Below are positions 3,726-38,645 of a DNA stretch of 38,645 bases, piece by piece. Location: contig DVJB01000063.1 of NCBI GenBank assembly GCA_018710845.1, positions 1 through 38,645 of the forward strand, in the 5' to 3' direction. The notes below the pieces were generated by a model. That model was not told the origin of the DNA. It saw only the letters and a list, made by a program, of their open reading frames with translations, and did no database searches. The position numbers were made by a program, and so were the translations under genes. This DNA is from Candidatus Onthomonas avicola. Lineage in GTDB: Bacteria; Bacillota; Clostridia; Oscillospirales; Oscillospiraceae. Positions within the stretch are counted from its first letter, which is position 1, and each line of letters starts with the position of its first letter.

Positions 3726-3757
3726 CGTCTCTGTCTACAATTTTTGTGGTGTTGCGG

Positions 3758-12239: not shown

Positions 12240-12241
12240 CC

Positions 12242-17791: not shown

Positions 17792-19250
17792 GTCGCTCCC
17801 CTCACGGGGAGCGTGGATTGAAATGAGCACGTAGTCCAGATCGTCATCGGCGTCCTGGACGAGTCGCTCCCCTCACGGGGAGCGTGGATTGAAATCCAGC
17901 TCCTTTCTGCCCAGCCCGGGCCGCGCGGTGTCGCTCCCCTCACGGGGAGCGTGGATTGAAATTACAACGCTGGCATTGTTCTCGCCCTGATACCAGTCGC
18001 TCCCCTCACGGGGAGCGTGGATTGAAATTCCAATTGCTTCTGGAGGTCTGGCAGGGCCTCTGCGGTCGCTCCCCTCACGGGGAGCGTGGATTGAAATCCT
18101 GTTTTAAAATAATGCTTGATGCGTTATCAGGTCGCTCCCCTCACGGGGAGCGTGGATTGAAATGTTGAAAAAGACATGTTTGATTTAATGGCCATGGGTC
18201 GCTCCCCTCACGGGGAGCGTGGATTGAAATCATCGTAAGGCTCCGTCTCGTTCGCCAGAAGTTGTCGCTCCCCTCACGGGGAGCGTGGATTGAAATTTTG
18301 CCTGGCTATAGATATACTGATTCACAACAAGTCGCTCCCCTCACGGGGAGCGTGGATTGAAATATCACACGACCGAGAAACACCGTGAAGAGATGAAGTC
18401 GCTCCCCTCACGGGGAGCGTGGATTGAAATCGGTAAGACATTGTCCGCTGTAGCGGCGTTACAATCGCGTCGCTCCCCTCACGGGGAGCGTGGATTGAAA
18501 TAAACTAACATCATCCGTATAATATAGATCATAACCGTCGCTCCCCTCACGGGGAGCGTGGATTGAAATCCGCATGTACGAGAACCCGCTTCGCATGTTC
18601 AAGGTCGCTCCCCTCACGGGGAGCGTGGATTGAAATGACGTGCAAGCAAGAGCCTTGTATCAAGCCGAGTGGTCGCTCCCCTCACGGGGAGCGTGGATTG
18701 AAATATTAACAATTATTTTGATAGGGGGTTAGGCGACTACGGTCGCTCCCCTCACGGGGAGCGTGGATTGAAATTTGAGCTGGGGCAATATGGACCGATT
18801 CATCCGGGACGGTCGCTCCCCTCACGGGGAGCGTGGATTGAAATGGCCCTCCGGTGGGGGCGCTTTCCTTCGACCTCTGTCGCTCCCCTCACGGGGAGCG
18901 TGGATTGAAATGCGCTGATCGGATACTCCAGTCGGGGAGGCGATACGTCGCTCCCCTCACGGGGAGCGTGGATTGAAATGGGAGAAATCGCAATCTTCTG
19001 CACTGTGCGCTTCGTCGCTCCCCTCACGGGGAGCGTGGATTGAAATGTAGTGTGGACTGACCATCCGCCCACGCAAACGGGTCGCTCCCCTCACGGGGAG
19101 CGTGGATTGAAATGCATCCTGGAGACTTGACCATGGCGCGGGACTATATGTCGCTCCCCTCACGGGGAGCGTGGATTGAAATGGCGGCATACGGCAGGCT
19201 GCGCGTCATTGTCTCGTGTCGCTCCCCTCACGGGGAGCGTAGATTAAAAT
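17792..19250 (+). CRISPR. Type I-C CRISPR array, 22 repeats and 21 spacers
   Basis: The 33-bp repeat begins GTCGCTCCCC and ends TGGATTGAAAT; its CGCTCCCC/GGGGAGCG arms form the hairpin cut by Cas5c. Repeats start at 17792, 17863, 17930, 17996, 18065, 18131, 18198, 18264, 18331, 18398, 18469, 18537, 18604, 18672, 18742, 18812, 18879, 18947, 19014, 19081, 19150 and 19218. Spacer lengths in order are 38, 34, 33, 36, 33, 34, 33, 34, 34, 38, 35, 34, 35, 37, 37, 34, 35, 34, 34, 36 and 35. The first 21 repeats are identical; the last carries two G-to-A changes in its 3' part (TAGATTAAAAT), marking the leader-distal end. All spacers look different by eye. Confidence 0.98.
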
Positions 19251-19368
19251 GTCTCCACCTGGCTGAGTAAGGCTTTACGGATGGGTCACTCCGGTTTTGG
19301 CTTCCCGTATGCGGCCTCTCATGTAAAACGTTTTTTATTTCTCAGCCGGGACAAATTTGGCAGAATAC

Positions 19369-21631: not shown

Positions 21632-22366
21632 TTATCCCACGTCATTTAAGCCTACGGTCAAAATCAAGACGGATGGCTCTGATTCATTTCCGTCAGAATC
21701 TGTCACATAAAAGACCAGTGGATAAATTCCCGCTGAATTGACATCAAACTCCCCTTCCATACGGCAATTCTGCGCCAATGTCTCAAAAGAATCGACGTCA
21801 TCTTCCAGGGTAATCAGGTACTCCTGCGGCTCAAAGGTCTCTCCGACGGCCAAGTTTACTACACTTTCCATTTGGATCACAGGGCGCTGCGTATCGCTCT
21901 CGTCAGCCGCATTATTTTCTGTCGCTGCATCGCCAGTTCCATCCGCAGGCCCGTTGGATAGGGAGTCCAGAAACTCCTGATAGATTTGCTCCGGGCTTTT
22001 CAGATAAGCCAGTCTCTGCGCGGTTGCCATATTATTGCTTCTGTCAAGCGCCCTGTAGTTGACCACGGCATACGAATGATCGCCATATATATTCACCGAA
22101 TATACAATGACGCGGTCAGTGATATCTCCGTCGCTGTCATCAAAGGCGCTGACCCCTGTCAGCAGGCAGGAGTAATCCTTCTGCAGCACAGCGGAAGCCT
22201 CCTCCTCCGTCAACTGGATAGATTCCGTGGCAAAGGTTATGCTCGGAGGCGTATTATCCTGATTCAAACGATCCAACACCAGGAAAACCGCCATAATGAC
22301 GCACAACACAAACAGCAAGCAGGTAATGACCGTCTTTGCCTTTATGTTTTGAAACTTTTTCCGCAT
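21632..22366 (-). CDS. Membrane-anchored surface protein with DUF5011-like repeats
   Basis: A 244-residue protein with an N-terminal membrane anchor (about residues 10-33, after a basic start) and an extracellular part. The outer part holds two beta-rich modules of the DUF5011/HYR kind, each ending in a pattern such as DSDGDITDRV or VTDSDGNES, joined by an acidic linker rich in Asn, Ala and Asp. Start ATG 22366 is chosen because GAGGT lies 8 nt upstream; the longer frame would use TTG at 22381 and overlap cpsD. It directly follows the tyrosine kinase, so it may act at the assembly site on the outer face, but its role is unknown. Confidence 0.7.
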   Translation of the reverse strand: MRKKFQNIKAKTVITCLLFVLCVIMAVFLVLDRLNQDNTPPSITFATESIQLTEEEASAVLQKDYSCLLTGVSAFDDSDGDITDRVIVYSVNIYGDHSYAVVNYRALDRSNNMATAQRLAYLKSPEQIYQEFLDSLSNGPADGTGDAATENNAADESDTQRPVIQMESVVNLAVGETFEPQEYLITLEDDVDSFETLAQNCRMEGEFDVNSAGIYPLVFYVTDSDGNESEPSVLILTVGLNDVG

Positions 22367-22377
22367 TCCGGTGTACC

Positions 22378-23088
22378 TCAATCATAATAGTGGCTATAGC
22401 TATTGTAATAGTACTTGTTTGTCCCGTACGTCCCGTACAGCGCCCGGTTGGAAAATTTAATCTTGTTCAGCACTGCGCCCAAAATCTTCCCGTCGGCGCG
22501 CTGAATCTGCTGCAAGGCGCGCTTTACAATACGGCAGCTGACCATGTCAGAGGCAATGACAAACAGCACTCCATCGCACTGAGCGCAAATGACTGCCGCA
22601 TCAATGACGCTGGCCAGCGGGGGAGAGTCAATAATCACATAGTCAAACGACTCTCTGCAGCTGTCCAATAAGGTCTTAAATGCCTCGCCGCCCAACAGCG
22701 CAGCCGGGTCCGGGGGCGTCGTTCCGGCGAGTATGAAGTACAGATTTGGGTTATCCGTCACCCTCAGCGTCTCAGAAAAGTCAATTTTTCCTGCCAGGAA
22801 GTCTGACAGTCCCTTTTTTTCCAGTCTGGAAATACCAAACAACTCAGACCACTGGGACTTTCGCATATCGGCGTCCAACATCAGGACTCTTTTCCCGCCC
22901 TGCGCCATCTCATTTGCAAGCTGGAGGGCAACCGTGGATTTGCCTTCGTGCGGGATGCTGCTGGTGATCAGGAGCACTTTGGGGGCATCGCTGCAAAAAT
23001 CAATGTTCACCCTGAGCGCCTTATAATTTTCCTTCAGTCTGGCAGAAAGCGCCGTATACCTCTTGGTATCCACCTTTTTCAGTTCCAT
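22378..23088 (-). CDS. cpsD: CpsD/CapB-type bacterial tyrosine kinase
   Basis: A 236-residue cytosolic BY-kinase that controls polysaccharide chain length and export together with CpsC. Walker A SSIPHEGKST, Walker A' LMLDADMRK and Walker B VIIDSPP are all intact. The C-terminal 19 residues contain eight tyrosines (YGTYGTNKYYYNSYSHYYD), the autophosphorylation cluster. As in other Firmicutes the kinase and its membrane activator are separate genes; cpsC lies 5 bp upstream. Confidence 0.93.
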   Translation of the reverse strand: MELKKVDTKRYTALSARLKENYKALRVNIDFCSDAPKVLLITSSIPHEGKSTVALQLANEMAQGGKRVLMLDADMRKSQWSELFGISRLEKKGLSDFLAGKIDFSETLRVTDNPNLYFILAGTTPPDPAALLGGEAFKTLLDSCRESFDYVIIDSPPLASVIDAAVICAQCDGVLFVIASDMVSCRIVKRALQQIQRADGKILGAVLNKIKFSNRALYGTYGTNKYYYNSYSHYYD

Positions 23089-23093: not shown

Positions 23094-23822
23094 TCACCGC
23101 CGTTCCCGTTTGGGCTGTCTTCTGCCCTCATATGATATTGTTCCGAGCACAATCAGACCAAGTCTCTCCTCCACGTCATCGGCGGAGACGATTTTATCGA
23201 TGACCAGGTAGCGAACGACCACCACGAGCGCCGAGAGAAACACCGCCGCGCAGGCACTCAGCACGGCCCAGGCCGGCGCTGTGATATTCGGCTGGAGCGG
23301 CAGGTTGGCCTCCTCCCACACCGTGATTCCCTCAATCCCCATGCCGGCCTCGATGGCCGCAGTCGCGACATCCCTCAGATAGATGGCCAGATTACGGGCG
23401 AGATAGGGGTCTTCATCCTTGACTGAGATCTCAATAATTCGCGTGTCTGTCGGATTATTCACCGTCACCTTGCCCAAAAAGCGCTCATAGGTCAGATCCA
23501 GGTTGTAATAAGAGATGACCTGCTCGACCACGTCCCTGCCCTGGATCAGTTCGATATAATCCGTCGTCAATAAAGAGCCGACCTCGAGGTCCACATAGGA
23601 GGACTGCCCCGCCGTCTCCTGCGGCATAATGTAGATCTTGGTTGTAGATTCATAGTCCAGAGGGATCACCGTAGAGCAGGCCAAATAGGTCAGCAGGCCG
23701 CAAAAGATGCCCGCAAACAGAATGATCAGTATCTTATCCAGCAGCTCCATGAAGAGTGCCTTGAAGTCAATTGTAATGCCGTGGCTCCCTATGACCGACA
23801 ATTGTTCCACCGAATCGCGCAT
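23094..23822 (-). CDS. cpsC: CpsC/Wzz-type chain length determinant and kinase activator
   Basis: A 242-residue membrane protein with two transmembrane segments (about 28-52 and 185-208) enclosing an extracellular Wzz domain. A proline-containing stretch LPLQPNITAP precedes the second segment as is usual. The short basic cytosolic tail should activate CpsD. GGGGGAG precedes the ATG. It starts 3 bp after the hydrolase stop. In many Firmicutes cpsB lies directly in front of cpsC; here they are separated by five genes. Confidence 0.9.
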   Translation of the reverse strand: MRDSVEQLSVIGSHGITIDFKALFMELLDKILIILFAGIFCGLLTYLACSTVIPLDYESTTKIYIMPQETAGQSSYVDLEVGSLLTTDYIELIQGRDVVEQVISYYNLDLTYERFLGKVTVNNPTDTRIIEISVKDEDPYLARNLAIYLRDVATAAIEAGMGIEGITVWEEANLPLQPNITAPAWAVLSACAAVFLSALVVVVRYLVIDKIVSADDVEERLGLIVLGTISYEGRRQPKRERR

Positions 23823-23825: not shown

Positions 23826-24791
23826 TTACTCTCCCCCGCTATCTAAAATGTACTGCTCCAGAAAACGATTGATCTCGGAGAAAACAGTCTCATTTTCTAT
23901 GATAATATGCCCTGCCCCCGGAATAACGGTCAACTCCGCCGTGACTCCGATTGCTTCCAGCGCATCGTACAAATTCTGGGATAGTGATACCGGCACAACT
24001 GTATCGTCGCTGCCTTGCAGAATTAAGACCGGCGGCAAATTTTCGGTCACATTATGCAGGATATCCACCTTATTGATCTCGGGAATTACATCGCTCCCGT
24101 AAACACCGTCAAAGATAAAGGACACCTGCACCAGCGAAAAACCAAAATCGTCTATCTGGATATTGTTGTATAGGTAATATCGGAAATCACTCGGCGCAGC
24201 CAGCAGGACAACCCCGTCCAGTTGAAACGCGTAGTCCTCCGGATGATCCGCAATCCGCTCGGCAAGGCGTCCCACCAGTTGACCTCCTGCGGAGTGCCCA
24301 AGCAGTACCACCCGACCGGTGTCAATCTGGTATTCTCCGGCGTGCTGGGCCAGATAATCAACTGCCGCCGCGACACACGCCTCTTCATCGGCAATGCTGA
24401 CGCAGTCTCCCTGAAGTGCAGTCGTGAAATCCAACAGGTCATAGTCAACCGAGGCCACAGTATAGCCAAGCGATGAAAAGGTGTAGAGCAGTGCATTCAT
24501 CTCTTCTTTTGCGCCGCTGGTCCAGCTGCCGCCATGCACCAACACCAAAAGCGGCTTCGCCGCCCCATCATCCCGAAAGGCGACGTCCAGATAGCAGTGA
24601 TCCCCTTCCGTCTCCTGGTACTGGATATCGGTCAAAAGCGTCACGCTTTCCGGCTGCTCCCGGAGGATTTGGATGGAGCTCGCGTCCGATTCAGCGTTTC
24701 TTCTCCAGAAAAAGAATAATGCGCCAAGAATCAACGCCGCCGCGACCACAACGGCGATCGTTCCAAGAATAATTTTGGTCCCTCGCTTCAT
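23826..24791 (-). CDS. Membrane-anchored alpha/beta hydrolase (esterase-like)
   Basis: A 321-residue protein with a single N-terminal membrane anchor (about 7-28, basic side inside), so the enzyme part should lie outside the cell. The alpha/beta hydrolase core has the oxyanion motif HGGSW (86-90), nucleophile Ser167 in GHSAGG, an acid in GSDDTVVP (Asp262 or Asp263) and His295 in GAGH, resembling carboxylesterases and acetyl-xylan esterases. Start 24791 overlaps the carrier-protein stop (TGATG) with GAGGG upstream. Its place next to an acyl ligase, carrier protein and membrane acyltransferase suggests that it removes or transfers acyl groups on the exported polysaccharide; that is inference. 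Confidence 0.85.
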   Translation of the reverse strand: MKRGTKIILGTIAVVVAAALILGALFFFWRRNAESDASSIQILREQPESVTLLTDIQYQETEGDHCYLDVAFRDDGAAKPLLVLVHGGSWTSGAKEEMNALLYTFSSLGYTVASVDYDLLDFTTALQGDCVSIADEEACVAAAVDYLAQHAGEYQIDTGRVVLLGHSAGGQLVGRLAERIADHPEDYAFQLDGVVLLAAPSDFRYYLYNNIQIDDFGFSLVQVSFIFDGVYGSDVIPEINKVDILHNVTENLPPVLILQGSDDTVVPVSLSQNLYDALEAIGVTAELTVIPGAGHIIIENETVFSEINRFLEQYILDSGGE

Positions 24792-25039
24792 CACGATTGC
24801 CCTCTCAGCTGGCTTATGATCACATCGCAAAGTTCGCCGACTGTTTTTACGTGCTCAACCACCTTGGGCGACAGTTCCACATCATAGATGTCTTCCAGCT
24901 CACCGAGCAGCATGAGAACCTCAACGGATGGCAGACCCAGTCCATGGACTACTTCGGTCTCCTCCGTGACGTCTACATCCGGTTCCGTAATCTTTACAAT
25001 GGAGTTTATAATGGCCTTTTTAGCCTCCTGCACTGTCAT
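24791..25039 (-). CDS. Acyl carrier protein-like (phosphopantetheine carrier)
   Basis: An 82-residue acidic, helical carrier protein. The attachment serine is Ser38 in GLPSVEVL, followed by LMLLGELEDIYDVEL, the usual helix II context. Normally the residue before the serine is Asp (DSL motif); here it is Pro37, an unusual change at the site recognised by phosphopantetheinyl transferase. Start 25039 follows AAGGATG; codons further upstream lack this. It sits between the AMP-forming ligase and the hydrolase, so it most likely carries the acyl group activated by the ligase rather than serving fatty acid synthesis. Confidence 0.85.
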   Translation of the reverse strand: MTVQEAKKAIINSIVKITEPDVDVTEETEVVHGLGLPSVEVLMLLGELEDIYDVELSPKVVEHVKTVGELCDVIISQLRGQS

Positions 25040-25075
25040 AAGTAACATCCTTTCTGTCATCCACTTCTGTTGAAA

Positions 25076-26554
25076 TTACAGTTTCACTTGACTTCTGAGG
25101 ACCTTTCCTGTTGCGTTTTTGGGGAGAGGGGAATCCCAAAAGCGCAGGCCGTGAAGCCGCTTATATGTCGGCATCCGGTCGTTGTATTCAGCCGTAAAGG
25201 TCCGAACGCGCTCCCGGGTGCGTTCCCTCTCCTCAGCGCTGCATGCGTCCGGATAATTGGGCCAGACCGCTGCCCACAGCGCGTCCTGATATTCTGTGAC
25301 AACCACCTCTGCGATATCGGGAGACAGGACCAGGTATTTCTCCAGCTCTTCCGGGCTGATATTTTCCCCGTTGGACAGGATGATCAGATTCTTCTTTCTG
25401 CCGGTCAGATAGTAATTCCCATCCTCATCCACACGGGCCAGGTCTCCGGTATGGTACCAGCCGTCCTTGAGCGCCTCTTCTGTGGCCTCCGGGTCGTTGT
25501 AATATCCAGACATCATCATGTCTCCGCGCAGCAGAAGTTCCCCATGTTCAATTTTTGCCTCTGCGTTTTGCGGCCTGCCCAGGGCTGTGGCATCCCCTCC
25601 GGCTGCCTCATGGGAGAACACGACGCCTGTGGTCTCTGTTGCACCGTATACATTTAAGATTGTTATATCTCTTTTTTGAAATGTCGAAATCAAGTCTATT
25701 GGGAGCTGTGCCCCACCGCATATAATACACCGCAGGCTCTCTCCAAATGCAGAACGCTCTCCCCCCTGCCGCTTCGTCAGCTCATGTTCTATGGCCCGGA
25801 GAAGCGATGGCACGGCAAACATGAGGTCTGGTTTCATCTGTTCAATGCCGCGTTTTGCCCGCATGGGGCCATCCACCAGGCCAAGAACACAGTTCTCTTT
25901 CAAGAGAACCGTCAGCGATGCGTGTACCCCTCCCACATGGTGCAGGGGCATGACAGACAGATACCTGGCAGTATTCCGAAAGGTCGTCGCCAAGCCGTGA
26001 CGAAACCCGGATACCACCGCCCGGTTGGAGAGCATAACCGCCTTTTGATCCCCCGTTGTGCCGGAAGTATACAGGATGCACATGATATCCTCCGGGCCTG
26101 CCTCATACGGCTGACCGGCAGAGGAGCTGTCCGCATAATGCTTTTCCTGCAGGCAAAACGTCGGATAGTCCGCGCGTTCCGTGTATACTTTGACCCGCTC
26201 CGCCGCATCGGCGTCAAAAAACAAGGCGTCAAGATCTGTATGCTGGATTGCCCGTCGAATCTCCTGTGCATTGAGGTCCGGATTCATCAGAGCAGCGGTC
26301 GCTCCGATATTGGTAATCGCGCAAAATGCGATCAACCACTGCACGCTGTTTCTCCCCATAATCCCAACATGTCTTCTCTGCAAACCCTCACGCAGCAGCA
26401 CGGCGGACAGCCTCCGGACTTCTTGCAAAAATTCCGCCGCGGACATATCGACCAGTTTTCTTCCGGCAAAATATTGTATCAGCGGACCATTGCCGGAGGT
26501 CTGCTCAATATACGCAAGTGCGTCGTGCATATTTTGAATTTCCTGTAATTTCAC
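25076..26554 (-). CDS. AMP-forming acyl ligase (ANL superfamily)
   Basis: A 492-residue adenylating enzyme that activates a carboxylic acid with ATP and passes it to a thiol, here probably the phosphopantetheine of the adjacent carrier protein. Core motifs are all present: YTSGTTGDQKA (162-172), NVYGATETTG, HTGDLARVD, GRKKNLI and the C-terminal catalytic Lys484 in PKNATGKVLR. The start codon is GTG (26552-26554) with AAGGAGG 7 nt upstream. The acid it uses cannot be read from sequence. Gene order (acyltransferase, ligase, carrier, hydrolase) parallels D-alanylation operons in logic, but this ligase lies outside a recognisable dlt context. Confidence 0.88.
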   Translation of the reverse strand: MKLQEIQNMHDALAYIEQTSGNGPLIQYFAGRKLVDMSAAEFLQEVRRLSAVLLREGLQRRHVGIMGRNSVQWLIAFCAITNIGATAALMNPDLNAQEIRRAIQHTDLDALFFDADAAERVKVYTERADYPTFCLQEKHYADSSSAGQPYEAGPEDIMCILYTSGTTGDQKAVMLSNRAVVSGFRHGLATTFRNTARYLSVMPLHHVGGVHASLTVLLKENCVLGLVDGPMRAKRGIEQMKPDLMFAVPSLLRAIEHELTKRQGGERSAFGESLRCIICGGAQLPIDLISTFQKRDITILNVYGATETTGVVFSHEAAGGDATALGRPQNAEAKIEHGELLLRGDMMMSGYYNDPEATEEALKDGWYHTGDLARVDEDGNYYLTGRKKNLIILSNGENISPEELEKYLVLSPDIAEVVVTEYQDALWAAVWPNYPDACSAEERERTRERVRTFTAEYNDRMPTYKRLHGLRFWDSPLPKNATGKVLRSQVKL

Positions 26555-26566
26555 CGTCTATCCTCC

Positions 26567-27661
26567 TTATTCAATCACAATTCGGGGACGGTTCCCCCTT
26601 CGTTTGATCCGCTTCCACTTTCGACTCACAAATTCAATCAGCTTGAGCCCGATCCAAATCACCACGCAGCGCAAAAGGAAGCACAAAATTACCGCAATGT
26701 ACTTTCTTTCGGAGAACAGATTTCCCAGGCGATACCACGGGAAGACCTTTTCTTCAAATGCGTGAATACAGAAAATCCAAAGTGTGTGAAACCCGATATA
26801 GCCCAAAGCTTCTGTTATTTTGTTCTCTATCGGAAACGTAGACAGCCATGCAAAAAGACGGCAGAACAAGACACCCAGACAGGCGGAGCCCAGAATATCA
26901 ATTGGCCCCAGAAGCCATGTAAAGCTGTACATGTCAACTCCTCCAAAAGCCAACGTAATCAGAGAAGGAACCAGCAGCACAGCGTATTCCGGCACGGTCA
27001 AGCTGGGTTTTTCCAACCAGGCGGTCTCTCTGAGCCGGTGTCCGATAAACAGAAAGCCAACCACAACCAGCATATTGGGAATGACGTAGACCCATACCTG
27101 CGAGATCAGCGTGAGCGACCACCCCAGCAGGACGCAGCCTAAGACGAGAATTCTTCTCACATTTTGGGATTGCAGACGGGCAATGAAATTATAGACAATC
27201 CATCCGCCCCAGAGCGCCCAAAAGAACCAAAACATCGCAACATTGTCCACTTCCAGGCCGAGTATTGTACCCTCCCAGCCCTCATTGACTGCAAAGAGGT
27301 AGGAAAAAATATATTGCCCGCCAAATTTCCAAAAGGAACGCCGCTCCAAAATTGCCAGGCCGAGCTTTGCGAGAAGAATCAGGCATACGGTAATCAAATA
27401 TGGTCTGAGCAGCAGCTTGGACTGTGTTCGGATACACTTCTTTGGTTTTTGCGGATAAAAGCCATATCCACTTATAATAAAAAACATCGCCATCAGTCCA
27501 GCTCCCAAATTGGGCAAGAGATTCCCAAAAAGGCCTTCCCGATATGTAATTGGGTAAAAATAGATCAGTGAGTGACATGCAACCACAAAGCAAATCCCAC
27601 AGCCGCGGGCAACATTAAAAAATCCGATTGAATTCGTGTCTCGCTCTCGTCTTTGCAGCAT
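26567..27661 (-). CDS. Acyltransferase family 3 membrane protein
   Basis: A 364-residue integral membrane protein with about ten hydrophobic segments, of the acyltransferase 3 (OafA/WecH-like) family. It opens with a short basic segment then FFNVARGCGICFVVACHS, where the His matches the conserved early histidine, and has FFIISGYGFY in the next membrane region. Such proteins acylate sugars on lipid-linked or exported glycans. GAGGGATG precedes the start. It is the only acyltransferase in the operon and stands directly before the ligase, so it is the probable acceptor of the carrier-bound acyl group. Confidence 0.85.
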   Translation of the reverse strand: MLQRRERDTNSIGFFNVARGCGICFVVACHSLIYFYPITYREGLFGNLLPNLGAGLMAMFFIISGYGFYPQKPKKCIRTQSKLLLRPYLITVCLILLAKLGLAILERRSFWKFGGQYIFSYLFAVNEGWEGTILGLEVDNVAMFWFFWALWGGWIVYNFIARLQSQNVRRILVLGCVLLGWSLTLISQVWVYVIPNMLVVVGFLFIGHRLRETAWLEKPSLTVPEYAVLLVPSLITLAFGGVDMYSFTWLLGPIDILGSACLGVLFCRLFAWLSTFPIENKITEALGYIGFHTLWIFCIHAFEEKVFPWYRLGNLFSERKYIAVILCFLLRCVVIWIGLKLIEFVSRKWKRIKRRGNRPRIVIE

Positions 27662-27674: not shown

Positions 27675-28913
27675 TTATGAAATTTCAGAATATCTCTTTA
27701 TGTCTGACAACAGCACCCCAAGCAGGAAAGCCAGCGGCACAGCCATGGTATTGACAAACGCGGACTCGCTCGTACTGGAGATCAGCAGGTAAAAAAAGGC
27801 AGAGAGCGCAGAGGCAAACGAATACGCGTTATGTTTTCTCATGTGATAGATGACAGAAAAGAGAAGCAGCAGCGCCGCCGCATAGCAGACCAAACCCAGC
27901 CATCCGGTCTGACCCAGAATCATGGGCCAGAACGTGTCGGAGATAAAGGCGTTGTATTGTCTGGAGATCCCCCACACATTTTGGATATGGTAGAGATAAT
28001 ACACCTTGGAATATGGATCAGCCGAAAACGCGGAGGCAAACGTGCCAAAGCCGGTGCCAAAGGGAAAATGGTCCTCCGCAATCCGCAAGGAGGCCTGTGT
28101 CAGAGCCGTGCGCGCCGCCTCGGTTCCCAAGCTGTGAAAATAGTAGACAAATTGCCGTGCAGAGACGATCACCATCGCCCCTCCGAGGGCAAGCCAGGAA
28201 AAGAAGCCAAACTCCCGTCTTCTCTTGCAAATAATGTAATAGATGAAGAAGAGGCAGATGACCGCGCCAACGGCCTTCATACGCAGCGTGCAGACCGTCA
28301 CAAAGCCCAACATACACAGGTACGGGAACACCTGGCCCTTATAATACTCATATAGCCGCACCAATATGGAACATAAGAAAATGCAAGCCGCCGCCAAATA
28401 GGTATGCACGGAATAAAACAGATAGACAGACCGCAGTCCGTAACGCGTACTGGCTGGAAAAATATGAAACACAAGATCCACAAGGCAGAGCAAAAAAAGC
28501 AAAACCGACAGACCCCGCACCCACTTCCAGCTGAAGCGAAAAACAGGTTCCATATCACAGCCGGAAAACAGCAGATATCCCGCCGCAATTGCGAGAAAAA
28601 ATTTCAGATTCAAATACAGGTCAGACAGTGCTGTCGACAGCGGCTGATAGCGCAGCGTCAGGCTCCCATATATTCCGCAGGCCGTAAACAGGGCGAGAAA
28701 AACGATCATCATCAGCAGCCGCGGGGAGATGGTGCAGCGAAAATGATGCCTCACGCCCTGCAGCATCAGCAGCGGAATGACACAGGCGGCAAAGAGCTCA
28801 TCCAGGTAGCGAAAGGGCGCAAGAAGCGTCTGCAGCGGATTTTGAAACACAAACAAGAGCACCAGCGCCACAAAAATCCAATTATAGCATTGTTGTTGTC
28901 GTACTTGCAGCAT
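27675..28913 (-). CDS. Wzy-like polysaccharide polymerase / O-antigen ligase family protein
   Basis: A 412-residue, strongly hydrophobic protein with around 11 membrane segments and a larger external loop near residues 250-310 that carries GTGFGTFASAFS, a pattern typical of the O-antigen ligase/polymerase family. It most likely links repeat units on the outer face of the membrane. The start at 28913 has AAGGAAGAG upstream and overlaps the end of cpsB by 32 bp, so the genes are translationally linked. It is assigned by topology, the loop motif and the cluster, since Wzy proteins have little sequence conservation. Confidence 0.8.
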   Translation of the reverse strand: MLQVRQQQCYNWIFVALVLLFVFQNPLQTLLAPFRYLDELFAACVIPLLMLQGVRHHFRCTISPRLLMMIVFLALFTACGIYGSLTLRYQPLSTALSDLYLNLKFFLAIAAGYLLFSGCDMEPVFRFSWKWVRGLSVLLFLLCLVDLVFHIFPASTRYGLRSVYLFYSVHTYLAAACIFLCSILVRLYEYYKGQVFPYLCMLGFVTVCTLRMKAVGAVICLFFIYYIICKRRREFGFFSWLALGGAMVIVSARQFVYYFHSLGTEAARTALTQASLRIAEDHFPFGTGFGTFASAFSADPYSKVYYLYHIQNVWGISRQYNAFISDTFWPMILGQTGWLGLVCYAAALLLLFSVIYHMRKHNAYSFASALSAFFYLLISSTSESAFVNTMAVPLAFLLGVLLSDIKRYSEIS

Positions 28914-29652
28914 CGTACTCTTCCTTTTTCAGCAGCTTTCGGGGCTGTTCTCTCATCAGCCAGTCAAAGTAGTCCTGCCCGGTATGTCTGCGGAGATACG
29001 CGGCACATTCCCTGAATTGGGGCGGGCGGAAATCAATGCGATGACAGTCTGTCCCAATCAGATCAATCTTCTGCTCCTTCAGCAGCCGCCTGCAGAACCT
29101 GGCCGTAAAAAAACCGTTATTGCCGGCAATGCTGTCCGAATTGACCTGCATCCATGCCCCCTGATCTCTCAGCTCGTCTATCATTTTCTTGTTCTCACGG
29201 AGCGCCCGGTAACGCTCGATATGGGCAAAGACGGGCGTGTAGTCATTCGCCGTCAGCAATCTGGCCATTTGATACAGCGTGTCCTCAGAACAGTCTGGGC
29301 GGGTCTCAACCAAGACGCAGCCATCTCCCGCGGTTCGGCAGTCTCCGTTTTTCAGGTGATAGATCAGTCCGTCCTCCCAATACGCCTCATTCCACAGATA
29401 GATCCGGAGCTGCGGGTCTATTTGCCGCGCCAGCCGGCGCGTCTGCTGCAGGGCCATATGGAGCCGGTCCGTGTCCTGTCGCCACCGGGAGGGTCGAAAG
29501 TGCGGCGTCGCGATGACCGTCCGAACCCCCTGTGCGTGCTCCTGCCGCAAAAGCCGCTCCGTCTCCTCCAGGCTGCGGGAGCCGTCGTCCAATCCGGGCA
29601 GAATGTGGCAGTGGCAGTCGTAAAGTCCGATGTACTCCGTGTCAGATTTCAT
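28882..29652 (-). CDS. cpsB: CpsB-type PHP-family tyrosine-protein phosphatase
   Basis: A 256-residue manganese-dependent phosphatase of the PHP family that dephosphorylates CpsD. The metal-binding start DCHCHILPGLDDGS has His14 and His16; later ligands are seen in ATPHFRPSRW, FAHIERY and GTDCHRIDFR. The start at 29652 has GGAGAGG upstream; a longer frame to 29721 runs into the Stealth gene. It overlaps the Stealth gene by 11 bp and the polymerase by 32 bp. It is separated from cpsC and cpsD by the polymerase and the acylation genes. Confidence 0.93.
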   Translation of the reverse strand: MKSDTEYIGLYDCHCHILPGLDDGSRSLEETERLLRQEHAQGVRTVIATPHFRPSRWRQDTDRLHMALQQTRRLARQIDPQLRIYLWNEAYWEDGLIYHLKNGDCRTAGDGCVLVETRPDCSEDTLYQMARLLTANDYTPVFAHIERYRALRENKKMIDELRDQGAWMQVNSDSIAGNNGFFTARFCRRLLKEQKIDLIGTDCHRIDFRPPQFRECAAYLRRHTGQDYFDWLMREQPRKLLKKEEYDAASTTTTML

Positions 29653-30652
29653 AGGACGACCTCTCCGGCAGTATCTCCTCAAACGCCGCAATGAGCTGCG
29701 CCTTGGTCTGTTCAAAGTCAATCTCCTCAGCGCTGTCGTTCAGGCATACGGCCGTATACCTCCGCTTTCGGATGGCGTCACAGATGTTCCGATTGTCTCT
29801 CCCCAGCTCAAAGTGTCTGCCCCACTTATGGCTCCGAGGTGCCATATTGCCCTGACAAATCTGCCAGTCTCTAAAAATCCAATCCGTTACGTCCGTTGCG
29901 GAACGAAACCGATGAGTGCAAGTCTCTGCTAGGACGTGCTCCTCCTGGCTCCAGACCTCACAAAAGGCGCTCTTTGTGTAAGAGGCGGGCAAATGCCGTC
30001 CACGAAAGCAGGAAAAGTACTTTAGCGGTGCGAGAAGCGCGTTGCGCAGCAGCTCCTGTGCGGAATACTGTCTGGAAAAGAACAGCGTCCAGGTGCGCCG
30101 GAGCACCTCCTTCTTACGAAAATGCCGGTTGATGATCGCCCCGTTATTGAGCATCATGTGGGGAAAGACATCCCGGATGTCCCACGACACAGCGGTGTCC
30201 AGCAGCGCCGCATCGCAAGGCAGGCCACACCTGAAGAAATCCTCCGGGGCAGCCGGTCTGATCAAAAACACATCGTCATTGAATTGGACAAAGTGTTCCT
30301 GCAGCTCCCTGATCCGGTGCAGGTTCAGCAAAATGGTGTTGGAATTAAAGGTGGGAAGGTATTCTTGCGGGATGTAATCCTCATGCCGGACCAGTGTCAG
30401 CTTGGGATGATCTAAATTGAGCCACCCGGGATAGTGCCCACAGGTGACGAAATAAATATGGTTGACCCACGGGGCATACTGTTCCACCCCGCGAAACCAA
30501 TACGGCAGCAGCCCCCAGTCACGAAAGCGGTTGGGAGACGCGCTGTTGTCTCCCTGATGGGGGGCATATTTTTCTTTCTCGGCCTGCCATCCCGGATCAG
30601 ATCCATCCACCCAGGTAATCACAAAATCTATTTTATCAGCCTTTCGGTTCAT
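29642..30652 (-). CDS. Stealth family sugar-phosphate transferase
   Basis: A 336-residue cytosolic protein of the Stealth family, which transfers hexose-1-phosphate or N-acetylhexosamine-1-phosphate to make phosphodiester-linked glycans. All four conserved regions are visible: CR1 DFVITWVDGSD (about residues 9-19), CR2 FRDWGLLPYWFRGVEQYAPW with HIYFVT, CR3 NNGAIINRHF and the C-terminal CR4 with CLND. The length fits short Gram-positive members. It suggests that the polymer contains phosphodiester links. Ribosome binding site GGAGCG precedes the ATG, 17 bp after the radical SAM gene. Confidence 0.92.
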   Translation of the reverse strand: MNRKADKIDFVITWVDGSDPGWQAEKEKYAPHQGDNSASPNRFRDWGLLPYWFRGVEQYAPWVNHIYFVTCGHYPGWLNLDHPKLTLVRHEDYIPQEYLPTFNSNTILLNLHRIRELQEHFVQFNDDVFLIRPAAPEDFFRCGLPCDAALLDTAVSWDIRDVFPHMMLNNGAIINRHFRKKEVLRRTWTLFFSRQYSAQELLRNALLAPLKYFSCFRGRHLPASYTKSAFCEVWSQEEHVLAETCTHRFRSATDVTDWIFRDWQICQGNMAPRSHKWGRHFELGRDNRNICDAIRKRRYTAVCLNDSAEEIDFEQTKAQLIAAFEEILPERSSYEI

Positions 30653-30669: not shown

Positions 30670-31848
30670 CTACCGTTTTCCCTCAATCTGCGCGGCAAAA
30701 TCCGATTTTCCGACATCCTCGCCGTCCTGGCTCTGCAGTTGGGCGTTACTGCCCTCGCTCAGCCCGTTGCTGGCTATCGCACACAAATCGCACGTAGAAC
30801 AGGCGTCCAGCTCCTCCTTTGTAACCCTGCCGTCCCGGTAGTCGCGCACAATTTTGTTCTCATACATACTGTACTTCTTCTTTTTCCAAAAACGCAGAAA
30901 TTTGTGTCGGATGACCCACCAGGCCGGCTTCCAGATATATTTGTGCATCGCCGGAGAGACAGAGCCAATCATCCAGCAGTTGCGGTCACAGCAGCGCACC
31001 TTTTTGCGCACTTCCTCAGCCTGTGCGCTGTTCCAAAGCTCCTCCCAGCTCTGCTCGTTCAGATTCCCCATGACCTCTTTGTCCCGGGTGCCATTGCAGG
31101 GCATGACGTCGCCGTAAGGGTCGATAAAAAAGGTGTCAAAGCTCATGTCACAGGGAAGCAGGCGTTTTTGCCCGTAAATGTAGTTGATCAGGCCATGATT
31201 GAAGTAGGCGCGAAACCATTTCTTTGGGCTGTGGGAGTTTAGCAGCTCGTTGATCAGATCCTCAAAATGCCCCGCCACCATGGGCCGGTCGTGAATGATA
31301 TTTTTTGTCTCCACAAAATAAAAGCTGTTGTGGAGAGAGGCGGTGGCAAATTCCATATCCAGCTCATTGGAAATCTGATATAGCGGGACCAGGTCGGGGG
31401 CATTTCTGTCCTGTACCGTCATGCCAAAGCCCACATCCCTCATCCCCATCTCGCGCAGCCTTTTCAGGGTCGTATAGCCGCGCTGATAGCCGTTCGGAAG
31501 CCCGCGAATCTCGTTATTGGTCTGCTCCAGGCCCTCAATGGAGATGCGAATCCCGACATTTGGAAATTCCCGGCAGAGCTCAATAATACGGTCTGTGAAA
31601 AACCCGTTCGTCGAAATGACAACGCGGTCACTGATTTTCATCAGTTCCCGGACAATGTCCCTCAAATCTGTCCGGATGAACGGCTCTCCGCCGGTGACGT
31701 TTGTGAAATACATCCTCGGCAGCTTCCGGATGGTCTCCACAGAGAGCTCCTCCTCCGGTCTGGACGGAGCTTTATAGCGGCTGCACATGGAGCACCGCGC
31801 ATTGCAGCGATAGGTGACAATGACGGTCCCGTTCAGCTTTTTCCCCAT
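30670..31848 (-). CDS. Radical SAM / SPASM-like enzyme in polysaccharide operon
   Basis: A 392-residue radical SAM protein. The [4Fe-4S] motif is Cys15-x3-Cys19-x2-Cys22 (CNARCSMC), followed by NVTGGEPF. A SPASM-like auxiliary cluster region contains CDMSFDTFFIDPYGDVMPC and VRCCDRNC. An extra CSTCDLC lies near residues 360-366, close to the C-terminus. The start ATG 31848 overlaps the preceding stop by one base; a TTG one codon earlier is possible. SPASM enzymes modify peptides or sugars; its setting between glycosyltransferases and Stealth suggests oxidation, epimerisation or dehydration of a sugar or side group. No precursor peptide gene is seen, which argues against a RiPP role. The reaction is unknown. 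Confidence 0.85.
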   Translation of the reverse strand: MGKKLNGTVIVTYRCNARCSMCSRYKAPSRPEEELSVETIRKLPRMYFTNVTGGEPFIRTDLRDIVRELMKISDRVVISTNGFFTDRIIELCREFPNVGIRISIEGLEQTNNEIRGLPNGYQRGYTTLKRLREMGMRDVGFGMTVQDRNAPDLVPLYQISNELDMEFATASLHNSFYFVETKNIIHDRPMVAGHFEDLINELLNSHSPKKWFRAYFNHGLINYIYGQKRLLPCDMSFDTFFIDPYGDVMPCNGTRDKEVMGNLNEQSWEELWNSAQAEEVRKKVRCCDRNCWMIGSVSPAMHKYIWKPAWWVIRHKFLRFWKKKKYSMYENKIVRDYRDGRVTKEELDACSTCDLCAIASNGLSEGSNAQLQSQDGEDVGKSDFAAQIEGKR

Positions 31849-33065
31849 CAAAGCACCCCTTTTCTTGCTTCGTATAAATTCATCAGCTTCTGTGTGTACT
31901 GTTCAATCGTATCAAATGAAACATCCCGGCAGTTATGCGCATAGGTGTCGGTCAGCGCCCTGTCATTCCAGAGTTTTTCAATTTTGGCTTTGAGCTGCGC
32001 GGCATTGCCGCTCTCAAAGAGTTCTCCGGTCCGTCCGTCTTCTATCAGCTCCGGGATGCCGCCGATATCGGCGCCCAGGACAGCCGTCCCGTAGATCTGG
32101 CTCTCCATCACAGAAAACGGGCAGTTCTCATAGCACTCCGACGGGCAGATCGAAAAGCGCGCTTCCCGAATCAGCTTCTCCAGAGCTTCTCCGCTCTGAA
32201 AGCCTGCATTCCAAATATTGGCGATCGCATCCAACTCACCCTCCAGCGGGCCGGTACCGGCAAAGACAAATTGTACGGCCGGAAGCTCTTTGCATACCTG
32301 AAGCAGGGTTTCCACTCCCTTTTCCCTGGAAAATCTTCCAAAATACAGCACATAATCCTTTTTGACGGTGTTCCTCCACTCCACTTGGTCTATAAAATTG
32401 TGCATCACCACTGTCTTCGCCGCAAGCAGCGGATTGCTGTCCAGCTTTGTCTTCAAAAACGCGGAGCAGCAGATGATCGTGTCAATATAGCGGTAAACCC
32501 TGTTCCACCGCCAGAAATACGCCTCCGCCGCCCCGACGGCGCTCTTGGCAAGGCTTCCGTGAATGCACTTTCCCCTTGCGCAGTTCCAAAAGCTGCCGCC
32601 GAAGCACTTCTCGCAGTTCTCATCCGTGTTCGGGTTGCGGCACATATGATTGGGACATACCAGCTGAGGATCATGCGCCGTATAGATCACGCGGCACCGG
32701 TGGCGCGCCTGTTCCCTCCACCGATGGATTTCCAGGATAATGGCGGGCGTGAGCTGGTAGTTAAAATTGTTGAGATGACACACGTCCGGCTGAAAATCCT
32801 CCAACACCAGTCGGATCTTTCTCCTCGCCTCGGCGGAGTAAATTGTCTTGACCGGGTAGGTCAGCTTGGACCGCTTGGAACCGCTATGGAAATCCATCGG
32901 GGAGGTATAGGCGTTTACCGCATTCCCCACGCAGCGTGCCGCGCTCTCCATGCCGAAGTACTGGACCTCGTGGCCCACCGACTCCAGATAGGCCCCGAGC
33001 TTGAGCATATAGGTCTCGCTGCCGCCCTTGGGATAGAGAAATTTATTGACCAACAAAATCCGCAT
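31848..33065 (-). CDS. Family 4 glycosyltransferase
   Basis: A 405-residue GT-B retaining glycosyltransferase. It begins MRILLVNKFLYPKGGSETYM, the glycine-rich acceptor loop typical of GT4. The C-terminal donor domain holds YFGRFSREKGVETLL and the EX7E-like segment CPSECYENCPFSVMES. There is a cysteine-rich patch (about residues 145-170, CxxH and CEKCF) as seen in some GT4 members with a zinc-like insert. Ribosome binding site AAGGAGCG precedes the start, which overlaps the upstream glycosyltransferase by 23 bp. The sugar is not predictable. Confidence 0.9.
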   Translation of the reverse strand: MRILLVNKFLYPKGGSETYMLKLGAYLESVGHEVQYFGMESAARCVGNAVNAYTSPMDFHSGSKRSKLTYPVKTIYSAEARRKIRLVLEDFQPDVCHLNNFNYQLTPAIILEIHRWREQARHRCRVIYTAHDPQLVCPNHMCRNPNTDENCEKCFGGSFWNCARGKCIHGSLAKSAVGAAEAYFWRWNRVYRYIDTIICCSAFLKTKLDSNPLLAAKTVVMHNFIDQVEWRNTVKKDYVLYFGRFSREKGVETLLQVCKELPAVQFVFAGTGPLEGELDAIANIWNAGFQSGEALEKLIREARFSICPSECYENCPFSVMESQIYGTAVLGADIGGIPELIEDGRTGELFESGNAAQLKAKIEKLWNDRALTDTYAHNCRDVSFDTIEQYTQKLMNLYEARKGVL

Positions 33066-34206
33066 AGCGCTCCTTCTCCCGGTACACCCTCAGCGTTCGC
33101 TCCACAATCTTGTCCCAGTCGTACCTCTCACAAATGAAATCGGCGCTTCCGCCGGCGTAGTGCTCCACCATCTCCGGCCTCTCGCAGAGCATCTGCAGCT
33201 TCTGCGCCAATTGCGCGCTGTCCCCCCGCCGGAAGGTAACCGCTCGGTCTCCCGTCAGATCTGTGCACTCGGAGATATCGCTGACCAGGCAGCAGTTCCC
33301 GTAGCTCATGGCCTCCAGCAGCCCCAACGGCATCCCTTCCAGGTCGCTGGGCAGGCAATAGAGGTAGCTGTTGCTGTATAACTCCTCCAGCATCTGTCCC
33401 TGCACAAATCCGGTAAAGAGAATCCGGCTGTCATCTGCCGCAAGCTGTTTCAGCTCCTGAAAGAATCCGTCTGCATCTGAGTTTCCGCCCGCGATGACCA
33501 GTCTTTTCTCCGTGCGTACCTCTTTGAACGCTTCAATGAGATACTTTACTCCCTTCTCAGGCACCAGCCGTCCCAGGTAAAGAATATAGGAGCCCTTTTT
33601 CAGCCCGAATCGTTCGGCAATCAGGCAGGCCGCCCTCCGCCGCGGGCGGCTGACGCCGTTGGGAATCAGCACGGTGTCCCGGCCATAACGGTCCTGAAAA
33701 TACCGCTGCGCGTCCTTGGACAGGACGATGATCTCATCGGCAAATCGAACCGCGCTCTTTTCGCCCAGCATAATATAGGCGCTGGCCAGCTTTCCCCATT
33801 TTGCACGCCGGTGATCCAGGCCATGAATGGTCACAACGACCCTCTTCCCGGCCAGCTTGGGCAGCCAGCACATCAGCGCGGGTCCCTCCGCGTGGAAGTG
33901 GACGACATCATACGCTCCAAAGGCCGCGCCGAGCGCCCCGGTCACGCTGGCCGACATCGCCGCCAGCCCGCGGCCGTTGATCGTCGGAACGCTTTTTAAG
34001 CGGACGCCCTTATACTCCTTGGCGCGCGGCACATCAAATTCCTTTCCCGCGGCGTGGTGGCCGCCGCGGTTATAGCAGGTCACGCTGTGTCCCAGCGCGG
34101 CCATCCGCGTGGCAAGCTCCTCTACAACCACTTCGACCCCGCCCTCGCGGCCCGGAATCCGCTTATGGCCCAGCATGGCAATTTTCAATTTCCCGCCGTT
34201 CCCCAT
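33043..34206 (-). CDS. Family 4 glycosyltransferase
   Basis: A 387-residue GT-B enzyme starting MGNGGKLKIAMLGHKRIPGR, followed by EGGVEVVVEELA, close to the rhamnosyl/galactosyl-type GT4 group that adds the second sugar after a WcaJ-like primer. The donor domain has YLGRLVPEKGVKYLI and LPSDLEGMPLGLLEAM. Start 34206 is chosen because GGAG lies just upstream; an upstream ATG at 34242 would overlap the priming transferase and has no ribosome binding site. Together with the priming enzyme it probably builds the first disaccharide on undecaprenyl phosphate. Confidence 0.9.
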   Translation of the reverse strand: MGNGGKLKIAMLGHKRIPGREGGVEVVVEELATRMAALGHSVTCYNRGGHHAAGKEFDVPRAKEYKGVRLKSVPTINGRGLAAMSASVTGALGAAFGAYDVVHFHAEGPALMCWLPKLAGKRVVVTIHGLDHRRAKWGKLASAYIMLGEKSAVRFADEIIVLSKDAQRYFQDRYGRDTVLIPNGVSRPRRRAACLIAERFGLKKGSYILYLGRLVPEKGVKYLIEAFKEVRTEKRLVIAGGNSDADGFFQELKQLAADDSRILFTGFVQGQMLEELYSNSYLYCLPSDLEGMPLGLLEAMSYGNCCLVSDISECTDLTGDRAVTFRRGDSAQLAQKLQMLCERPEMVEHYAGGSADFICERYDWDKIVERTLRVYREKERYADFVGQ

Positions 34207-34225
34207 ACGCTGTCTCCGCTTTGCA

Positions 34226-34909
34226 TCATTCACCATAGCCATGGACTACCGCGCCGATGGTCATAAAAATAATCTTCCAATCCACCCAAAAGCTGCGCTC
34301 CCGAATATATCGGATATCCAGTTCCACCCACTTGTCAAAAGACAGTTCATTGCGATGCGGCTGAATCTGCCAGTAACAGGTGAGCCCGGGTGTGACGCTC
34401 AGCCGCTGACGCTGATAGCTGTTATACTCGGCGACCTCTCTGGGCAGGGCCGGCCTGGGCCCCACAATGCTCATATCGCCCTTGAGGACGTTCACCAGCT
34501 GCGGCAGCTCGTCGATGCCGGTCCTTCTGAGAAACCTCCCAATGCGCGTAATGCGCGGATCGTCCCTTATCTTAAAAACAGGACCGTCCATCTCATTTTG
34601 ATCCAGCAGCTCTGCAAGCTTGGCGCCCGCGTCGATACACATGGTCCGAAACTTGTACATCCGGAATGCTTTTCCATTTTTCCCGCAGCGAATCTGCGAA
34701 TAGATTGGGCTGCCATGTGGGTCATCTATGTAAATAATCAGCGCCAGCAGCAGCAAAGCAGGCGCCAACACAGCCAGCGCAAGCAGCGAAAGCAGAATAT
34801 CCTGTCCTCTGCGCAGCAGCCAGTAGCCTCTGTGTACGCGCCCTCTCCCCTGTCTATCCAGTCTCACGGCCACTCCCTCATCACCAGCAAGAGACTCCGC
34901 CCTTTTCAC
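34226..34909 (-). CDS. Undecaprenyl-phosphate sugar phosphotransferase (priming enzyme)
   Basis: A 227-residue monotopic phosphoglycosyl transferase that moves a sugar-1-phosphate onto undecaprenyl phosphate and starts the repeat unit. One hydrophobic re-entrant helix (about residues 36-62) precedes the catalytic core with [44 protein letters not shown] and the C-terminal GLTCYWQI. It is the short form without the extra N-terminal membrane domain. The start codon is GTG (34907-34909) with GGGGGAGAG upstream. It is the first gene after the operon promoter at 34996-35024. Usual substrates in the family are UDP-glucose or UDP-galactose. Confidence 0.93.
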
Positions 34910-36755: not shown

Positions 36756-36824
36756 GAATGGATTCCTCCGTTTCTCAATAGCTGCAACGCTCCCGTCGAT
36801 ATAAAGCCAAAATCGTCGCACTTG

Positions 36825-37806: not shown

Positions 37807-38645
37807 TCATTTCGTACTATTTTGTGTGTCATCGACAATTTTTATAAATTCCTGCCGCTCAGCAGGAGACCACCGGGAATCCAGAATCAAGTACCCTTTG
37901 AACAGGCCATCCTTGACGCGGTGAGCGACAAAGCGGCTGCTCAGGAAACGCAGTTTAGCCTTATGGGGCGAAGTGTGCCGCTCGGACAACAGCTTTTGCA
38001 CTTTCAGCCAATCCTCTTTTTTGATAATTGCTGTATGGTGATTTTCCTTGAAGTACATATTCAGGTCTGTGTTTTTCACAGACTTATGAGTGCGGAAATC
38101 CTTGGTGTAGGTTTTCTGCATTAAGGCATCACCACAGTATTTTTCGTTTCGGAGGATGCTGCGGACGGTACCGGCAGACCAGCTATCGTTGCCCATAGGG
38201 GATTTGATCCCCTGTTCAGTCAGTGCGGCAGCAATCTCTGACGGCGATGCTCCTTCCAGACAGCTTTCGTAGATGTACTCAATAATCCTTGCCTCGGTTG
38301 GCTCAATCACTAGACGGCCAAAGTGGTCGCGGTAAAATCCCAGTGTATTCTGCACAGAGAATTTATAAATTCCCTCGGCCATTCGCCAACGAATCCCCGC
38401 TTTGATGGCCTCGCTTTTCTGCTGGGACTCCATTTCGGCAAGTGCAGACAGAAGCACGATCAGCAGATTGTTTTTTCCGTCGCCTGTATAGGTGATATGT
38501 TCTGTCTCAAATTCCACTGATACAGGGGGATTCAGCGCGGAAAGAATATTCAGGTTATCCAGTATGTCTACAATATTCCGGCCAAAGCGGCTGATGCTCT
38601 TGGTAAGGATCAGATCGATTTTGCCGTCCACCGCATCGGCAATCA
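37807..38645 (-). CDS. Serine recombinase, partial (5' end outside window)
   Basis: The C-terminal 279 or so residues of a large serine recombinase, as used by integrative and conjugative elements. The visible part starts within the catalytic domain: DAVDGKIDLILTKSISRFGRN, then NLLIVLLSALAEMESQQKSEAI (helix E), followed by the Recombinase domain (GIYKFSVQNTLGFYRD to NEKYCGDALMQKTY). The C-terminus reads SSRFVAHRVKDGLFKGYLILD and lacks the cysteine zinc ribbon of many relatives, a form seen in some ICE recombinases. The catalytic serine is beyond the window edge. Confidence 0.9.
   Translation of the reverse strand, partial: IADAVDGKIDLILTKSISRFGRNIVDILDNLNILSALNPPVSVEFETEHITYTGDGKNNLLIVLLSALAEMESQQKSEAIKAGIRWRMAEGIYKFSVQNTLGFYRDHFGRLVIEPTEARIIEYIYESCLEGASPSEIAAALTEQGIKSPMGNDSWSAGTVRSILRNEKYCGDALMQKTYTKDFRTHKSVKNTDLNMYFKENHHTAIIKKEDWLKVQKLLSERHTSPHKAKLRFLSSRFVAHRVKDGLFKGYLILDSRWSPAERQEFIKIVDDTQNSTK

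Follow-up and report, generated by a model that had tools for sequence, protein, structure and literature searches.

A 38,645-nucleotide stretch of DNA from Candidatus Onthomonas avicola (GenBank assembly GCA_018710845.1, contig DVJB01000063.1; C44 of genome G000 in our set, assembly size 2.39 Mb), referred to here as the window, carries four consecutive minus-strand open reading frames (ORFs) at positions 23826–27661. These were found to encode a membrane acyltransferase of the acyltransferase 3 (AT3) family, an adenosine monophosphate (AMP)-forming ligase, an acyl carrier protein (ACP) and an alpha/beta hydrolase, and they are located between wzy and wzz of an exopolysaccharide (EPS)/capsule operon. 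Genes for an ACP and a ligase were found to accompany one particular clade of AT3 proteins, and it is likely, at a probability of roughly 0.6, that together they form a carrier-protein-dependent module for trans-membrane O-acylation of a surface glycopolymer.

AT3 proteins of this clade were identified in 17 sampled genomes from two families, eight in the genus of the window and nine in a family designated f52, which may be the Lachnospiraceae. The ACP gene adjoins the AT3 gene in nine genomes (G001, G019, G022, G027, G454, G1062, G922, G937 and G1002) and only a ligase gene separates the two in seven (the window, G002, G004, G028, G950, G1025 and G1091), which makes 16 of 17 genomes with such a placement, G964 being the exception. 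A ligase gene lies within 5 kb of the AT3 gene in 15 of 17 (exceptions G922 and G964). As a control, we used 30 of 72 PF01757 matches, drawn from 16 f52 genomes with at most two loci per genome; the module AT3s of G454 and G922 are among the 72 but not among the 30. None of the 30 had an ACP or module-type ligase gene in its flanks (up to 1.5 kb on each side, some shorter).

In a tree of 55 AT3 rows, the 17 ACP-linked rows (16 genomes, with two rows from G1025) formed one clade with support of 100/99. Of the control loci, 24 entered this tree, three having no usable ORF and three having over-long frames that were dropped; it replaced an earlier tree of 37 rows that held only six controls. The AT3 of G964 fell inside the ACP-linked clade when added, and the six AT3s nearest to the clade in the tree, which came from the same searches, had no ACP or ligase in the fetched stretches. 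The linkage of ACP and ligase to this AT3 clade is therefore real, conserved and specific, and the expectation of a first-pass annotation of the window, that a ligase and a carrier travel with the acyltransferase, agrees with these counts. A claim that the ACP is always linked was dropped, as G964 contradicts it.

The same annotation had described four consecutive genes of these families in this position, and all four ORFs are indeed present with products scoring above the curated Pfam cut-offs. The AT3 (26567–27661; 364 amino acids, aa) matched PF01757 Acyl_transf_3 (1.6e-11; 44.3 bits against a curated cut-off of 31), as did, also over the cut-off, the AT3s of loci L080, L083, L159 and L060. 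The ligase (25076–26554; 492 aa), of the acyl-CoA-synthetase type in Pfam and NCBIfam, matched PF00501 AMP-binding (1.1e-58), the ACP (24791–25039; longest ORF from 25060) matched PF00550 PP-binding (6.1e-6), and the hydrolase (23826–24791) is of the BD-FAE/Abhydrolase_3 type (PF20434 BD-FAE, 4.2e-24; PF07859, 3.3e-15). The ACP probably starts at ATG 25039, a start that aligns with its relatives, and for the hydrolase ATG 24791 appears a more likely start than TTG 24830. The gaps are 13 bp between wzy and the AT3 gene, 12 bp between the AT3 and ligase genes, 15 bp from the ligase gene to the first ATG of the ACP ORF (36 bp to the likelier start) and 3 bp between the hydrolase gene and wzz, and the hydrolase ATG overlaps the ACP stop codon (tgATG at 24791). 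Given that these gaps are at most 15 bp within the set (36 bp if the likelier start of the ACP is used) and that the ACP and hydrolase ORFs overlap, the four genes are very likely co-transcribed.

Within a set of 148 relatives, the AT3 subfamily was detected in eight genomes, including that of the window, and all eight fall among the 32 sampled genomes of the genus and have the AT3, ligase and ACP genes within one EPS locus. The gene order is AT3-ligase-ACP-hydrolase in the window, AT3-ACP-hydrolase-ligase in G001, G019, G022 and G027 (G001 and G019 have two ligases in tandem), and AT3-ligase-ACP with no hydrolase in G002, G004 and G028. Identities to the window proteins are 31–43% for the AT3s, 28–47% for the ACPs, 33–40% for the ligases and 37–40% for the hydrolases. 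The grouping is not a chance one, since seven other genomes of the genus also have AT3, ligase and ACP in their EPS loci, and in four of these the hydrolase is present as well. In G014, no such AT3 was found in the assembly and a 5.5-kb contig shows a tandem pair of ligases only; this genome was not counted. An extra ORF resembling AMP-forming ligases lies immediately beyond the ACP gene, on the other strand, in G002, G004 and G028 (L041, 6450–8180; L042, 9620–11347; L043, 5975–7780; weak matches to the module-ligase profile, 2e-15 to 3e-17).

Across the class and phylum the module is sparse. A profile of the eight genus AT3s (A1) matched four of 391 class genomes at E<=1e-8, namely the genome of the window and G454, both with the trio, and G342 and G378, whose AT3s have no ACP or ligase; among 398 phylum genomes the same profile matched two, that of the window and G675, the latter without the module. 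A wider AT3 profile (A5) matched 12 of 291 class genomes. In the nine loci fetched from eight of these genomes, none except the window had an ACP near the AT3, and A5 was rejected as too wide to define the clade. One of these loci (L130) has a ligase on the far side of an unrelated gene, and G380, which has a broken frame, was left out of the locus inspection.

In G454, which belongs to f52, the AT3, ACP and ligase genes are consecutive, with the ACP gene overlapping the AT3 gene, in no recognisable EPS locus. Its AT3 was used to search 200 f52 genomes and 11 matched at 1e-10. In eight of these (G454, G1062, G950, G1025, G922, G1091, G937 and G1002) the ACP adjoins the AT3 or follows the ligase, and seven of the eight have a ligase in the same stretch; the other three (G1057, G1098 and G1015) fall outside the clade and no ACP was seen in their fetched stretches. 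Profile A1 at E<=1e-20 matched eight of 180 f52 genomes, seven of them already found and the eighth G964, with the ACP so placed in the seven.

The settings of these modules differ. In G1091 the order AT3-ligase-ACP lies within a CpsB-Wzz-kinase locus, and both AT3 and ligase are 39% identical to those of the window. In G950 (L078) the order AT3-ligase-ACP-ligase-ACP directly follows an ABC exporter gene and precedes a histidine kinase gene, and the module is two genes from a TagF-like glycerophosphotransferase, which fits acylation of a surface polymer. The second ligase/ACP pair of L078 (about 10282–12001) is followed by the histidine kinase gene and what is, by its start, an ABC ATPase gene, which by analogy may be a peptide-stress sensor set. 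Such sets are known from the regulation of Dlt systems. G964 (L159) has the order wzy-AT3-hydrolase-wzz with no ACP or ligase beside it. Elsewhere in this genome three ligases matched strongly (1.8e-139 to 1.5e-137): two stand in tandem on its contig C44, and the third is part of an EPS-like locus on its C63 that also encodes a hydrolase and an ACP. Genes resembling those of an Rnf complex, as read from their starts, stand ahead of the L159 cluster (159–5448). The set also occurs outside polysaccharide operons, the setting in which the first-pass annotation described it: the trios of L060 and L079 are outside recognisable EPS loci.

The expected catalytic and attachment residues of the AT3 and ACP are conserved. 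His30 of the AT3, in the region of the first helix, is invariant in the genus alignment (8/8) and in a wider set (12/12), and the attachment Ser of the ACP is invariant in 12/12 aligned ACPs. A structure model of the AT3 (predicted local distance difference test score, pLDDT, 71.5) matched no PDB structure at E<=0.001, and there was no PDB sequence match either. Two plasmid searches with AT3 queries returned no match, nor did a scan of viral contigs.

The ligases resemble acyl-CoA-synthetase-type enzymes, including MenE, FadD, 4-chlorobenzoyl-CoA ligase and feruloyl-CoA synthetase, in NCBIfam and PDB comparisons (CoA, coenzyme A). At the alignment position that we take to be that of the amino-acid-binding Asp, Asp is absent from 13/13 module ligases, whereas an FD motif is found in 9/13 DltA-like or amino-acid references, and 23/23 module ligases, those of G014 and G964 included, carry an xHH/xYH stretch with a shared His at this position. 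In a ligase tree, a phylogeny that the first-pass annotation had suggested, the module ligases branch separately from amino-acid adenylation domains and do not form a single clade. The module ligases are thus not amino-acid-type enzymes.

The ligases of G002, G004 and G028 group with those of stand-alone modules (95/75), while their AT3s group with that of the window, and the G937 ligase groups with unlinked ligases (96/89). Although some of these forks are weak, this pattern suggests that ligases have been exchanged on a conserved AT3 chassis, and different modules would therefore load different acids. The unusual acid suggested in the first-pass annotation is hypothetical: no acid-making gene was recognised in the operon of the window, and the acid may thus be a common metabolite.

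A scan of genome contigs with the ligase gave one rhizobial ligase of 24% identity, and the plasmid matches (2552 records, all below 60% identity) were generic-looking. The one plasmid locus inspected, on NC_012780.1 of Lachnospira eligens (264727–290157; L055), carries a ligase and ACP near capsule genes and other acyltransferases, and was left out of the counts. There the ligase and ACP are accompanied by a patatin, an SGNH hydrolase and two lysophospholipid acyltransferases, and L055 may represent another carrier-fed system, for a lipid or a glycan. In-frame TAG codons in ligase matches were considered as recoding, and those inspected proved to be ordinary gene-end stops (complete ORFs of 473 to 475 aa).

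The hydrolase is an optional accessory to a core of AT3, ACP and ligase, being present in the cluster in 6/17 clade genomes (the window, G001, G019, G022, G027 and G964). The first-pass annotation held that rare co-occurrence of the families would refute its idea, and the counts did not refute it for three of the four; a claim of always four genes was dropped in view of G002, G004 and G028, the f52 modules and G964. The Ser-Asp-His residues S180, D276 and H308 (long numbering) are complete in the window protein and invariant in 5/5 sequences, and in 4/4 of a set that includes a more distant member. A single N-terminal hydrophobic stretch, read from the sequence, makes the earlier label of a surface-anchored protein a fair inference; the structure model (pLDDT 53) was not used. 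In the listed matches from the 148 relatives, full-length identity of about 40% was confined to the hydrolases of the four genus cassettes, and the match ranking after these stood at 3e-18. As the two hydrolase copies of G964 stand with separate parts of the set, one beside the AT3 alone and the other with the ligase and ACP, the hydrolase is tied to the system.

The mechanism strongly suggested by these data is as follows. The ligase would adenylate a carboxylic acid other than an alpha-amino acid and transfer it as a thioester to the phosphopantetheine arm of the linked ACP. The acyl-ACP would then dock at the cytoplasmic face of the AT3, which would pass the acyl group across the membrane, and on the outside the group would be esterified to the EPS/capsule polymer, either during its growth or after its completion. 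The acceptor probably contains phosphodiester-linked sugars, as the operon includes a gene for a Stealth-family sugar-phosphate transferase (29642–30652), which we take to suggest a phosphodiester-containing glycan; all seven other loci of the genus contain a relative of it. Where present, the hydrolase may be an outer transferase acting with the AT3, in the place of SGNH or DltD-type partners, or a cognate esterase that trims the decoration.

Several observations weigh against this proposal. The co-occurrence of AT3 and ACP does not prove acyl transfer from one to the other, and the characterised AT3 proteins use acyl-CoA, according to the available portions of a review of the family (PMC9558356). 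The counts are inflated by near-copies within the genus, and the clade label and the linked set were partly chosen by the searches that found them. The modules are also not uniform: G922 has the AT3 and ACP with no ligase in a 12-kb stretch, about four genes lie between the ACP and ligase of G1062, and the genes are split in G964. Ligase and ACP pairs with no clade AT3 in the fetched stretch were found on the L. eligens plasmid and in G024 (L044, a related pair with identities to the window of 27% and 29%), and such pairs therefore have other uses. The hydrolase is missing from the cluster in 11/17 genomes (G002, G004 and G028; L060, L077–L080 and L083–L085). Near-full-length relatives of 25–27% identity occur outside the clusters in G002, G004, G019 and G028, and a role in trans is possible in G002, G004 and G028. 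The C-terminal tail of the module AT3s is only somewhat more basic (mean +5.6) than in controls (+3.0 and +4.3), and ACP docking via a basic tail was dropped as an argument.

If ligase and ACP instead supplied a cytoplasmic step in which a sugar nucleotide or a lipid-linked repeat unit is acylated, the AT3 would be a separate, acetyl-CoA-dependent O-acetyltransferase. The ligase and carrier RfbL/RfbK of the Vibrio cholerae O1 O-antigen cluster offer a precedent (available text of PMC12208996), the AT3 review, in the same portions, argues for acyl-CoA over ACP as the donor, and the pairs that stand without a clade AT3 are in keeping with it. We consider this unlikely, however, given that the linkage is specific to one AT3 clade, that G922 retains AT3 and ACP without a linked ligase, and that neither a sugar aminotransferase nor a soluble acyltransferase was found among the window operon genes given to Pfam; beside the trios of L060 and L079, no other acyltransferase was recognised from the ORF lists, the neighbours themselves not having been searched. 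It is quite unlikely that the module attaches a long-chain fatty acid that serves as a membrane anchor for the polymer or for a glycolipid and not as a decoration of repeat units. The ligase scores best in NCBIfam against a model for a subfamily of long-chain fatty acid-CoA ligases (247 bits, below its cut-off of 476) and the module ACPs match fatty-acid and meromycolate ACPs in the PDB, but several of what we take to be the acid-facing positions are small in the alignment with 4-chlorobenzoyl-CoA ligase, and the operon has Wzy/Wzz-type polymerisation genes.

A divergent D-alanylation (Dlt) system would share the logic of ligase, carrier, membrane acyltransferase and outer Ser-hydrolase-type protein. 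DltA (TIGR01734) was over its cut-off in 0/17 genomes, with weaker matches at E<=1e-60 elsewhere in 9/17 (G964 not among them). Given this result and the non-amino-acid type of the ligases, the module is predicted not to be Dlt by descent; the AT3 is not an MBOAT protein, no DltC model was among the seven NCBIfam matches of the ACP, and we regard this explanation as very improbable. The choice between the two roles of the hydrolase is much closer. That it is a plain cognate esterase or deacylase, with the AT3 alone performing the outer transfer, has an appreciable chance somewhat below even odds: the protein belongs to a BD-FAE/esterase family, its top-scoring solved relatives carry the names lipase or esterase, and clusters without it exist. 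On the other side, the L159 hydrolase lies beside an AT3 with no linked ligase or ACP, as a partner would, though an esterase could also sit there, and the Ser-His-Asp outer transferases OatA and PatB are precedents (available text of PMC12148441). An esterase can itself be needed for acylation, as the accessible part of a study of FmtA in Staphylococcus aureus teichoic acid D-alanylation indicates (PMC12505958). We lean slightly towards the transferase role, and the editing outside the cell of the first-pass annotation is thus only one of two candidates.

The remaining genes of the operon, also on the minus strand and identified by Pfam, are those of a surface-polysaccharide locus. The Wzy-like polymerase (27675–28913; Wzy_C match below its cut-off) has relatives near the cassette in seven other genus genomes. 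Also encoded are a CpsB/CapC phosphatase (28882–29721), two GT4 glycosyltransferases (31848–34242), an initiating sugar-phosphate transferase (Bac_transf; 34226–34909) and a Wzx-type flippase (35289–36821). A radical SAM/SPASM protein (30670–31851) could be involved in sugar modification or acid synthesis, and no similar protein was found in the fetched stretches of the genus relatives. Beyond the Wzz chain-length protein (23094–23822) and a CpsD-like kinase (AAA_31; 22378–23088), the operon continues with an Ig-like domain protein (21632–22381), directly after the kinase, and a probable glycosyltransferase (match below cut-off). In L036, L037, L039 and L040 an Ig-like protein gene likewise follows the kinase ORF, and Wzz and kinase, two genes in the window, are apparently fused there (479-aa ORFs).

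A serine recombinase (Resolvase/Recombinase) is encoded beside the operon at the window end (37807–38631), and mobility of the locus is possible. Elsewhere in the window (9705–14775 and 17792–19278) are genes for a Cas3-type helicase with an HD domain and for Csd1, presumably of a type I-C-like CRISPR-Cas system, followed by an array of 22 repeats spaced 66–71 bp apart.

The D-alanylation of teichoic acids by Dlt involves DltA-DltC-DltB-DltX-DltD. Like Dlt, the module pairs an AMP-forming ligase with a dedicated small carrier that has a Ser site, is proposed to export the acyl group through a multi-span membrane acyltransferase, and can include a putatively anchored Ser-His-Asp protein that is probably located outside. 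It differs in having a PF01757 AT3 rather than the MBOAT protein DltB (no search was made for an MBOAT gene outside the module), a ligase that is not of the amino-acid type, and an optional alpha/beta hydrolase in place of the SGNH protein DltD. The Dlt-like logic with acyltransferase 3 instead of MBOAT that had been proposed for the window is thus sustained as logic. In PatA/PatB, a membrane acyltransferase likewise works with an outer Ser-His-Asp transferase, for which the hydrolase is a candidate here, but the system uses an MBOAT protein and an acyl-CoA donor (available text of PMC12148441).

The module shares PF01757 with stand-alone AT3s (ExoH/ExoZ, GumF/GumG, WcjE and IcaC), several of them in EPS operons, and with the AT3-SGNH proteins OatA and OafB, but differs in its linked ACP and ligase and in having a separate alpha/beta hydrolase as candidate outer protein. 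The closest surface-polysaccharide precedent for the ligase and carrier is rfbK/rfbL (wbeL) of the V. cholerae O1 tetronate pathway, which also lie inside a surface-polysaccharide cluster. The tetronate acyltransferase is of another type than AT3, and neither a soluble acyltransferase of that type nor aminosugar genes were found among the window operon genes given to Pfam. In the available text of two papers, the V. cholerae pair feeds N-acylation of perosamine (PMC3441752, PMC12208996). No description of an AT3-ACP-ligase module was found in the searched full-text literature, which omits most subscription papers, consistent with the earlier statement that no well-described system has this set.

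In the portions available, the AT3 review (PMC9558356) treats acyl-CoA as the donor, says nothing of a linked carrier or ligase, and raises the question of a necessary partner, 'SGNH or otherwise', for AT3-only proteins. The linked ACP suggests a donor other than acyl-CoA for the module AT3s, a departure from the usual view of the family as acyl-CoA-fed, and the module makes both the donor and the partner question testable in small, separable sets with and without the candidate outer protein. More tentatively, at close to even odds, the clade may be an independently evolved AT3 counterpart of Dlt, fed by a dedicated acyl-ACP, with exchangeable ligases supplying different acids and, in its fullest form, a separate outer transferase of the alpha/beta-hydrolase fold. 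If so, Dlt-type logic would have arisen at least twice, on the basis of unrelated membrane enzymes, providing a route to vary the charge and chemistry of the cell coat with acids beyond acetate.

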